42,071 bases of DNA, from positions 1 through 42,071 of the forward strand of contig CALAJQ010000028.1 of NCBI GenBank assembly GCA_937922785.1. Reading direction: 5' to 3'. Shown here one piece after another: positions 15,375 through 24,839 of the stretch (position 1 is the stretch's first letter; the number at the start of each line of letters is the position of its first letter). Source of the stretch: an uncultured Acidimicrobiales bacterium (lineage in GTDB: Bacteria > Actinomycetota > Acidimicrobiia > Acidimicrobiales > SZUA-35). The notes under the pieces are model-generated. The model searched no databases. It saw only the letters and a program-made list of their open reading frames with translations, and was not told where the DNA came from. Both the position numbers and the translations under genes were made by a program.

Positions 15375-15776
15375 CGCTTCAAAAGTAGAGATCAAAGATG
15401 ATCAATGGGTCCATGCCATGTGAAGATATTGTGCAGCCGTCGTTCGCTTCGCTCTCTTTGCGAGTTTCGGCCCTCGGGGCCAAAACGTCGAGTTTGGGGA
15501 ACGCCGCGCCAGTGTCCCGACGGCACCAGCGAGTGCGGAACGCAGCGTGTAGCCAGGTGTCCCGACGGTACCAGCGTGACGCGGGCGGCCTCCGTGGCCG
15601 AGGAACGGCAAACCCGGTGTCCCGACGGTGCCAGCGTGACGCGGGCGGCCTCCGTGGCCGAGGAACGGCAAACCAGGTCTTTTTGCCTAGGAACCTAATG
15701 GGTGACTCAAGTACTTAAACCATCAGTGCGATACTTGTTGTTCACACATGTTGTTTGCTTAGCTGGGAGACGCTAA
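15375..15776. other. Divergent intergenic region with repeats, no gene seen
   Basis: About 400 bases separate the leftward regulator and the rightward lipoprotein gene. I see no credible coding sequence: open frames here run through the repeats and start without ribosome sites. The region holds a GGCC-CTCGG-GGCC hairpin near 15470-15482, one partial and two full copies of a GC-rich repeat (15514-15675), and a short AT-richer stretch before the lipoprotein ribosome site GGGAGA. It must contain at least one promoter for each direction, but no -35/-10 pair stands out. Confidence 0.7.
15514..15675. repeat. 60-base tandem repeat, one partial and two full copies
   Basis: The full copies are 15556-15615 and 15616-15675 and differ at only a few positions. 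Each contains GTCCCGAC, then GCGGCCTCCGTGGCC starting 26 bases later, then GAGGAACGGCA. GGCC-TCCGT-GGCC can form a small hairpin. A partial copy from about 15514 keeps the GTCCCGACGG part but lacks the GGCC hairpin. A diverged copy with the same 26-base spacing occurs at 24010, so the element is dispersed. Confidence 0.9.
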
Positions 15777-23640: not shown

Positions 23641-23994
23641 ATGGCACGTCCACGTAAAACAACCCGTTTCGGCGGCTCAGCCAGTCACCAGAAACTGATG
23701 ATGGCAAACCTCGTAGCTTCACTTGTTGCTGCCGAAGGCATCACAACTACCGAAGCAAAAGCACGGGCCGTACGCCCGGTAGCAGAGAAGCTAATCACCA
23801 AGGGCAAGAAGGGCGGACTTCACAACTTCCGTCAGGTTCTTAGCTATCTGGGCGATGTCGAGATGACTACCAAGCTGTTTGACGAAGTTGCGCCTCGATA
23901 CGCAACTCGTCCCGGTGGCTACACCCGAATTCTCAAGCTCGGACCACGCCCTGGTGACAACGCACCGATGGCTCGCATCGAACTAGTCGAGTAA
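23641..23994 (+). CDS. rplQ: 50S ribosomal protein L17
   Basis: This 117-residue protein begins [51 protein letters not shown] and ends [26 protein letters not shown], all typical L17. No C-terminal extension is present here, although L22 in the same genome has one. It closes the alpha-operon core; a dispersed repeat and a hairpin lie between it and truA. Confidence 0.97.
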
Positions 23995-24009
23995 CGAAGT
24001 CAAGATTGC

Positions 24010-24061
24010 GTCCCGACCACACGCCCGCACCTAAAGCGGCCTCCGTGGCCGGGGAACGGCA
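24010..24061 (+). repeat. Diverged copy of the 60-base repeat in front of truA
   Basis: GTCCCGAC at 24010-24017 is followed 26 bases later by GCGGCCTCCGTGGCC (24036-24050) and GGGGAACGGCA. The order and spacing equal the two copies at 15556-15675; the 18-base middle is unrelated. It lies just after the rplQ stop, between genes or at the extreme 5' end of truA. Confidence 0.85.
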
Positions 24062-24070
24062 TGTCAGTTC

Positions 24071-24098
24071 AACAAGCGGGCCTTTGGGTCCGCTTGTT
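24071..24098 (+). terminator. Twelve-base-pair hairpin between rplQ and truA
   Basis: AACAAGCGGGCC (24071-24082) pairs with GGTCCGCTTGTT (24087-24098), one pair being G-T, around a TTTG loop. The stem has terminator strength, but the following bases are TTCGCG or similar rather than a T-run. The loop contains the TTG at 24084, the most likely truA start codon, so the hairpin may instead govern truA translation. Confidence 0.5.
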
Positions 24099-24839
24099 CG
24101 CGTTCGCCTCACTATTGCCTATGACGGCACGAACTTTCGGGGGCTTGCTCCTAACCCCGGGGTTAGGACAGTGGTGGGGGAGTTAGTACGGGTTCTAGAA
24201 CCTCTACTGAAATTTGAACCCAACATCGTCATGTCTGGTCGTACTGATGCTGGAGTGCACGCTTGGACCCAGGTGCTGTCTTTTGACGCGCCAGCCGAGT
24301 TTCAGCTGGAGCGCATTCAGAACACCATCAACAGCCGACTTGGCCCCGAGGTCGTTGCCCGCAAGGTTGAGCTCGCTGCGCCAGAGTTTTCGGCGCGCTT
24401 TGACGCTGCCGGCCGCAAGTATCGCTACCACATCTTCAACAGTCCAACTCCTAGCCCGTTTGCCTCCCAGGCTTCATGGTGGGTTGCGCAGCCATTGCGG
24501 CTGGAACTCATGCAGTTGGCTTGTGACCCGCTATTGGGCACTCACGATTTTGCATCTTTTTGTCGCAGGCCTAAGCGTGACGGCGAGCCAGCATCGCTTG
24601 TCAGGCACGTCGAATTGGCGAATTGGACGCGATTGGATGAAAACAATCTGAGATTTGAGATTGCCGGCTCGTCATTTTGTCACCAAATGGTGAGATCGAT
24701 TGTCGGATTCCATGTTGCGGTGGGACGGCAAAAGCGCACTGCTGGGGAGCTATCTCCAGTTCTTCGAGCTCAAGATCGAAACGCGGCGGAAAACCCGGCT
24801 CCACCGGAGGGGCTGATGTTGTGGGACGTGTGGTACTAG
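24084..24839 (+). CDS. truA: tRNA pseudouridine(38-40) synthase TruA
   Basis: TruA converts uridines 38-40 of the tRNA anticodon arm to pseudouridine. The core VRLTIAYDGTNFRGLAPNPGVRTVVGELV and the catalytic Asp in MSGRTDAGVHAW are clear, as are KYRYHIFNS and SFCHQMVRSIVG. From 24084 the protein has 251 residues, a normal length. No ATG is available in frame: TTG at 24084 (in a hairpin loop), GTG at 24045 (inside the dispersed repeat) and TTG at 24006 are the choices. I prefer 24084 because sequence conservation begins just after it. The gene lies in its common place between rplQ and rplM. Confidence 0.9.
   Translation: MGPLVRVRLTIAYDGTNFRGLAPNPGVRTVVGELVRVLEPLLKFEPNIVMSGRTDAGVHAWTQVLSFDAPAEFQLERIQNTINSRLGPEVVARKVELAAPEFSARFDAAGRKYRYHIFNSPTPSPFASQASWWVAQPLRLELMQLACDPLLGTHDFASFCRRPKRDGEPASLVRHVELANWTRLDENNLRFEIAGSSFCHQMVRSIVGFHVAVGRQKRTAGELSPVLRAQDRNAAENPAPPEGLMLWDVWY

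Follow-up and report, generated by a model that had tools for sequence, protein, structure and literature searches.

The element in front of truA in this uncultured Acidimicrobiales bacterium is probably a copy of a REP-like (MITE-like), non-autonomous mobile palindromic repeat of this actinobacterial order. It lies in a window of 42,071 nucleotides, the whole stretch of DNA that was analysed (assembly GCA_937922785.1, contig CALAJQ010000028.1, positions 1 to 42,071). No described family could be matched to it: it is REP-like broadly, and it falls under neither of the two tagged REP definitions. Where its copies lie, how patchily they are distributed over the order and a copy in opposite orientation in two congeners speak, so far as sequence comparison goes, more for a mobile repeat than for a conserved regulatory element.

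Copies, arms and tandem arrays

In the 24 kb copy the motif GTCCCGAC (24010-24017) is followed by 18 bases and then by the 15-mer GCGGCCTCCGTGGCC (24036-24050). The preliminary description had taken this for a dispersed element with exact spacing, and the 26-base distance from start to start is indeed common to the 24 kb copy and the copies at 15.6 kb (cores at 15585 and 15645). Permitting two mismatches, the 15-mer had three matches in the window against 0.22 expected, and three or more were found in 0 of 100 shuffles. The conserved part is present as described, only longer than first noted, covering 25 bases and reaching 24060. This 25-mer, the core or right arm (Table 1), was detected at 55 places within three mismatches in the 4.91 Mb genome (G000), 36 of them exact and 19 near, which bears out the proposal of a dispersed element with further genome copies; the reversed-pattern control gave 0. 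The 15-mer itself was present at 51 exact places genome-wide, compared with one for the pattern read backwards. A chance match was rejected on the shuffles of the window for the 15-mer and on the reversed-pattern control for the 25-mer.

Table 1. Positions of the element's parts in the window and of the genes around the 24 kb copy
Feature	Position	Strand	Evidence
Core (right arm) GCGGCCTCCGTGGCCGGGGAACGGC of the 24 kb copy	24036..24060	+	Among the 36 exact genome places of the 25-mer
Left arm GCGTCCCGACC... of the 24 kb copy, partial inverted partner of the core	24008..24035	+	Minus-strand hairpin z -2.24; left-arm/core duplex z -2.1 minus, -1.09 plus
First 15.6 kb core, one mismatch (GAGG for GGGG)	15585..15609	+	15-mer and 25-mer matches
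Second 15.6 kb core, one mismatch, unit two of a 60-base tandem pair	15645..15669	+	15-mer and 25-mer matches
Left part of the first 15.6 kb copy, GTCCCGAC and 18 bases	15559..15584	+	
Left part of the second 15.6 kb copy, GTCCCGAC and 18 bases	15619..15644	+	
Degenerate upstream unit of the 15.6 kb array, GTCCCGAC without recognisable core	15514..15558	+	Read from sequence
rplQ, ribosomal protein L17, gene before the 24 kb element	23641..23994	+	Pfam PF01196, E 2.4e-37
truA frame, open through the whole element from TTG at 24006; true start codon uncertain	24006..24839	+	Pfam PF01416, E 1.2e-29

Another hairpin repeat, of the kind CGTTCGCTTCGCTC...GAGTTTCGGCC...GGCCAAAAC, was found beside the 15.6 kb array (15441-15495) and also in loci L019, L061, L068 and L243. 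A hairpin repeat similar to this kind sits in the rplQ-truA spacer of genome G012.

Copies with up to five mismatches to the 25-mer, or with its first 15 bases exact, were collected, giving 59 copies in 35 clusters. A full copy in this genome is about 50-55 bases long and consists of a fixed 25-base right arm and a loose left arm. A search for the pattern of GTCCCGAC, 18 free bases and the core, which had been suggested as a check, does recover copies, but the exact form was found in only 6 of the 59 (5 of the 35 clusters). With one mismatch allowed, TCCCGAC was present 16-19 bases before the core in 20 of the 59 copies, 13 of them at exactly 18, and in 17 of the 35 clusters. As a control, a 45-base stretch further left of the same copies had 17 TCCCGAC matches, partly because the arrays put neighbouring units into that stretch. 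A recognisable left motif was absent from the remaining 18 clusters, where the left sides grade into unrelated sequence. A fixed 18-base spacing was thus rejected as a rule, although the spacing is favoured. Nor does the element have two conserved ends around a free middle, as had been suggested: the right 25 bases are nearly invariant, and everything left of them drifts.

The left motif reads as a degenerate, partial reverse complement of the core, which makes the element an imperfect palindrome whose right arm is fixed and whose left arm is loose. With one copy taken from each of the 35 clusters, the duplex energy between the core and the 32 bases to its left was on average better than in shuffles. 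The mean z was -0.54 for the plus strand and -0.80 for the minus strand (standard error about 0.2), though in at least five array clusters (L035, L039, L046, L071 and L073) the preceding core reaches into these 32 bases and may improve the scores. Pairing of the left arm was a minority feature, with z below -1.64 in 9 of the 35 clusters on the minus strand and in 5 on the plus strand. The long palindrome was imperfect or lost in many copies.

Single copies made up 21 clusters. The other 14 were tandem arrays of two to four copies (5 double, 8 triple and 1 quadruple). Unit length was constant within 7 of the 8 triples and varied between arrays from 26 to 95 bases. In several arrays the repeated unit consisted of the core plus local sequence from one or both sides: the unit of the L048/L049 array includes the end of the upstream coding sequence, that of L064 includes sequence behind the core, and that of L034 includes the start of a coding sequence, its first unit having a degenerate core that falls outside the 59 copies. 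We infer from these units that arrays with local flanks probably formed at their present sites through tandem duplication rather than through a single unit being imported repeatedly. The preliminary description had set simple duplication aside; with 14 of 35 clusters in tandem and several units carrying local flanks, it has to be let back in.

Placement at gene edges and at the rplQ-truA locus

By gene calls from a simple and crude codon-usage method, 32 of the 35 clusters lie between genes (10 convergent, 17 co-directional, both orientations together, and 5 divergent) and 3 inside predicted genes. Where the right neighbour was on the other strand, the end of the core was at most 15 bases from its stop codon in 14 of 18 clusters; with a co-directional right neighbour, no more than 15 bases separated the core from the called start in 3 of 14. 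Closeness to stop codons did not reach significance when scored as relative position in the spacer (p 0.11 on the right, 0.16 on the left), because short spacers leave little room. Elsewhere, 15 of the 27 listed copies from other genomes end at most nine bases from the stop codon of an open frame of 90 or more codons on the other strand, a few of these frames possibly being spurious (for example at L162). The copies at L163 and L208 lie directly before an ATG. A few cores are in frame with a protein. One of them (L036) belongs to a 2-oxoacid dehydrogenase acyltransferase, where it encodes part of the linker that separates the lipoyl domain (5-77) from the E3-binding domain (115-149), and another (L034) is at the N-terminus of a histidine kinase.

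The 24 kb element lies in the N-terminal tail of the truA frame. The TruA N-terminus was readable in the loci of 22 of 29 relatives, and 14 of the 22 possess an SLFD-like peptide (LFD or LFE). In the G000 protein, residues encoded by the element take the place of this peptide and are followed by a shared SGPxGPLVRVR-like stretch. From the rplQ stop codon to the YDG codons there are 125 bases in G000, compared with 124 and 123 in the two nearest relatives without the element; this near-equal length indicates replacement or a compensating deletion at this site, not simple insertion. The 25-mer was absent, within two mismatches, anywhere in 60 relatives. An exact empty site was not obtained, the relatives compared at rplQ-truA belonging to other genera. 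In genome G041 the single copy of a 23-base form of the core is on a different contig from its rplQ.

A 12-pair hairpin (z -4.93) was observed at 24071-24098, in the N-terminal coding region of truA just before the RVR...YDG codons. Stems of at least eight pairs were present at that spot in 14 of 24 readable loci, G000 included, often with different letters, and were reached by 124 of 2000 random 51-mers. This hairpin is possibly a terminator or attenuator embedded in truA.

Distribution and relation to known repeat families

The 23-base form (the core with position 8 open) was found as an exact match in 10 of 397 genomes of the order, G000 included, belonging to six families. With up to two mismatches it was found in 17 genomes, leaving 380 of the 397 with no match, and the reversed pattern was present at 2 places in the 397 genomes. 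In the seven genomes without an exact copy, the matches look by eye like chance coding matches. Copy number was 53 places in G000 and ranged between 1 and 10 in the other nine genomes. Outside the order, the form was detected in 1 of 366 genomes, with one mismatch. The sole exact match of the 25-mer besides G000 in the named GTDB collection was in a metagenome-assembled uncultured Acidimicrobiales bacterium (G061, the same as G112).

G112 was compared with G268, which carries the same genus label. A convergent gene pair was colinear between them (78.5% identity over a 3,011-base alignment), and in the spacer of this pair a 36-base stretch of the element matched in reverse orientation. In G112 and G268 the right end of the element meets the stop codons of different genes. 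The opposite orientations suggest either an independent insertion or an inversion. Loci L176 (G242) and L167 (G352), from genomes labelled as two families, have the same spacer with two core copies each and flanks 80-85% identical; with just 1,709 bases in the G352 locus, misbinning is possible.

No IMG/VR viral contig held the exact 23-base pattern. A 56-base query had 0 matches in phage records and 2 weak ones (E 0.3) in plasmid records. In a k-mer survey of 421,919 bases, the element family was below the threshold of 5 copies and no 11-mer was above the threshold of 10.

The element agrees with REP-like short extragenic palindromes in the broad sense (20-60 bases, palindromic, many copies, mostly extragenic, near gene 3′ ends). 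According to PMC3733652, REPs lie near 3′ ends, close behind stops, between convergent or unidirectional genes, and may supply the stop codon. The same paper records REPs inside genes, for instance the tRNA pseudouridine synthase A gene of S. maltophilia, as well as several families in some genomes. In all of this (short palindromes, many intergenic copies, the same placement, some copies inside genes, several families in some genomes) the present element is like those REPs. Unlike them, it has no GTAG tag, CGTC at few left arms only, a fixed right arm but a loose left one, no core next to any of the three RAYTs (REP-associated transposases) inspected, and frequent tandem arrays, several of which copy local flanks.

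Two Y1 transposase genes were found in G000; the NCBIfam cut-off for RAYTs was passed by one and missed by the other. One RAYT gene (L107, contig C12:209135-210231) is flanked by inverted copies of GGGTCAAGTCTCAAAAGTAGC, which is a separate repeat with 37 places within two mismatches. A second, RAYT-like gene (L109, about 164 kb on the same contig) has GGGGACAGGCCTGGCTCACC at both ends in inverted orientation, and a RAYT in G061 is flanked by GGTACCTGGCACC-type repeats. The core was absent from the three 3.3 kb loci (two in G000, one in G061), the best match having 8 mismatches of 23. A link to these three RAYTs was therefore not supported, since their loci lack the core and contain other inverted repeats next to the gene. 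Among the Y1 transposase/RAYT genes examined, none was identified as the mobilising gene.

In the 59 copies, GTAG was found within 12 bases to the left of the core once, to the right twice, and at the outer end of the left arm twice. With no consistent GTAG tag and none of the three RAYT genes flanked by the core, the family falls outside the definition of the GTAG-tagged REPs. Six of the 35 clusters had CGTC at the outer left-arm end, and 5 had CGTCCCGAC. CGTC-tagged REPs, as described in PMC3733652, have a CGTC tag, a stem beginning with AT and a tail near CCA, and how they spread is left open there. By reading, the core has a CGGCC stem without the AT start and no CCA tail, which places it outside that definition as well.

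Rickettsia palindromic elements are about 150 bp long and form in-frame insertions in proteins, according to the review PMC10969869. The present element is like these in that frames stay open through it and protein-coding copies are in frame. It differs from those roughly 150 bp elements in having 32 of its 35 clusters outside predicted genes.

A limited open-access literature returned nothing for palindromic repeats in Acidimicrobiia or Ilumatobacter, for the string GGCCGGGGAACG or for MIRU with DTGA, and a search for REP and pseudoknot in this limited library gave only items off-topic by title. MIRUs (mycobacterial interspersed repetitive units) are small dispersed repeats of actinobacteria that lie between packed genes and have tandem copies in variable number. 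They are longer than the present element, and the likeness is by description only.

Fold, competing explanations and a possible mode of spread

On the minus strand the 24 kb copy forms one hairpin joining the left motif and the core (z -2.24), compared with z -0.86 on the plus strand. The first 15.6 kb copy folded no better than shuffled sequence (z 0.71 and 1.11 on the two strands). For 17 elements that have a left arm, the RNAalifold consensus contained the core hairpin only, because the left arms differ too much.

Covariation in the core was assessed on 43 distinct, hand-picked 25-mers. A stem 2-6/12-16 together with a crossing stem 8-10/22-24 was formed in 93.0% of the cells, against 22-46% in slid controls. 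Changes on both sides were found in 34 cells (shuffle mean 10.4), a number that 0 of 500 shuffles reached; in all, 3 of the 5 measures were reached by 0 of 500. The number of pairs changed on both sides (4) was reached by 80 of 500 shuffles, and that of further pair types (10) by 109. Over the 43 rows, pair 5-13 was C-G in 36 and G-C in 7, pair 2-16 had changed to U-A or G-C in 6, and pair 8-24 was C-G in 16, G-C in 15, U-A in 4, G-U in 1 and unpaired in 7.

We repeated the comparison with 24 copies from other genomes that had at most one mismatch to a pattern blind at positions 8 and 24, leaving out one copy from outside the order. The two positions were Watson-Crick in 20 of the 24 against 11.0 expected, or 14.6 expected when shuffled within genomes (p 0.005). 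Taking one copy per locus and one G000 row, 18 of 20 were paired (within-genome p 0.02). In a control of 12 presumed chance coding hits (at least two mismatches, picked by eye), these positions were also paired in 7 against 3.7 expected (p 0.03). Positions 8 and 24 thus covary, a look at pairing covariation having been suggested earlier, but the control also shows pairing, because of which a pseudoknot between tail and loop is only suggested by them.

A folded or protein-bound element under constraint had been proposed at the outset. As to the fold, the 24 kb copy on the minus strand and the compensatory changes of the core speak for it and the 15.6 kb copy, no better than shuffles, against it. 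The corresponding explanation, in which selection on the fold preserves a cis-acting RNA element (a 3′ UTR hairpin, terminator or stabiliser) at many genes, is unlikely. It draws on that minus-strand fold (z -2.24), on the C-G to G-C change of pair 5-13 in 7 of 43 rows and the changes of pair 2-16 in 6, and on the frequent position right behind stop codons. However, a hairpin selected for its fold would vary its letters freely, yet 36 places are identical over 25 bases; some copies lie within reading frames, and at two mismatches 380 of the 397 genomes sampled in the order lack a match. Rfam models had 0 matches in the window at gathering thresholds, and 0 with E up to 1 at 23960-24130. A site for a DNA-binding protein, dispersed and conserved in sequence because the protein reads it, is hardly credible. 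Such a site would be in keeping with the near invariance of 25 bases and with the recurrent small arrays, but compensatory stem changes are unexpected for double-stranded binding, and neither the in-frame copies nor the copy number of 1 to 53 and the absence from those 380 genomes fit a housekeeping protein.

A REP family mobilised by a RAYT (Y1 transposase), acting in trans or since lost, would share the placement of REPs in PMC3733652 and could draw on the two Y1 transposase genes of G000, one of them over the RAYT cut-off. We regard it as very improbable: each of the three RAYT genes is flanked by repeats of its own (GGGTCAAGTCTCAAAAGTAGC, GGGGACAGGCCTGGCTCACC and the GGTACCTGGCACC type), the core match there is no better than 8 mismatches of 23, and the GTAG tag is not consistent.

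If the element is a mobile repeat, as we favour, its copies would be non-autonomous and would depend for their spread on an enzyme that acts in trans. This enzyme may recognise the right arm only, perhaps as a folded single strand, which would keep that arm constant among still-mobile copies. Insertions would survive where they are harmless, that is, behind stop codons, between tightly packed genes and in flexible protein tails. The hairpin might then promote slippage, yielding two to four tandem copies. In transcripts reading the minus strand, the element would be a hairpin right after the stop codon.

A more specific version, which we consider quite unlikely, takes the 25-base core as the minimal mobile unit. 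Its signal would be a tiny pseudoknot with a CGGCC/GGCCG stem and a loop NCG paired to the tail CGN′, the loop guiding the cut or joined end, and the enzyme would be a new one. The tail triplet CGN′ would form the terminus by which the element is joined to its target. Sequence left of the core would be a passenger from the neighbours, so that a fixed right and a drifting left side follow. For IS200/IS605, PMC8266576 covers guide pairing and the role of REP loops. The proposed pairing is like that of guide and cleavage site in those elements, but with the guide in the loop.

The element has been found in the reading frame of TruA and in that of a dehydrogenase linker. The combination of a rigid arm with a free one, patchy occurrence in the order and an orientation differing between congeners narrows the bases that the machinery must read. 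The pairing of loop and tail would offer a concrete test for the spreading of short palindromic repeats outside the RAYT-linked families.
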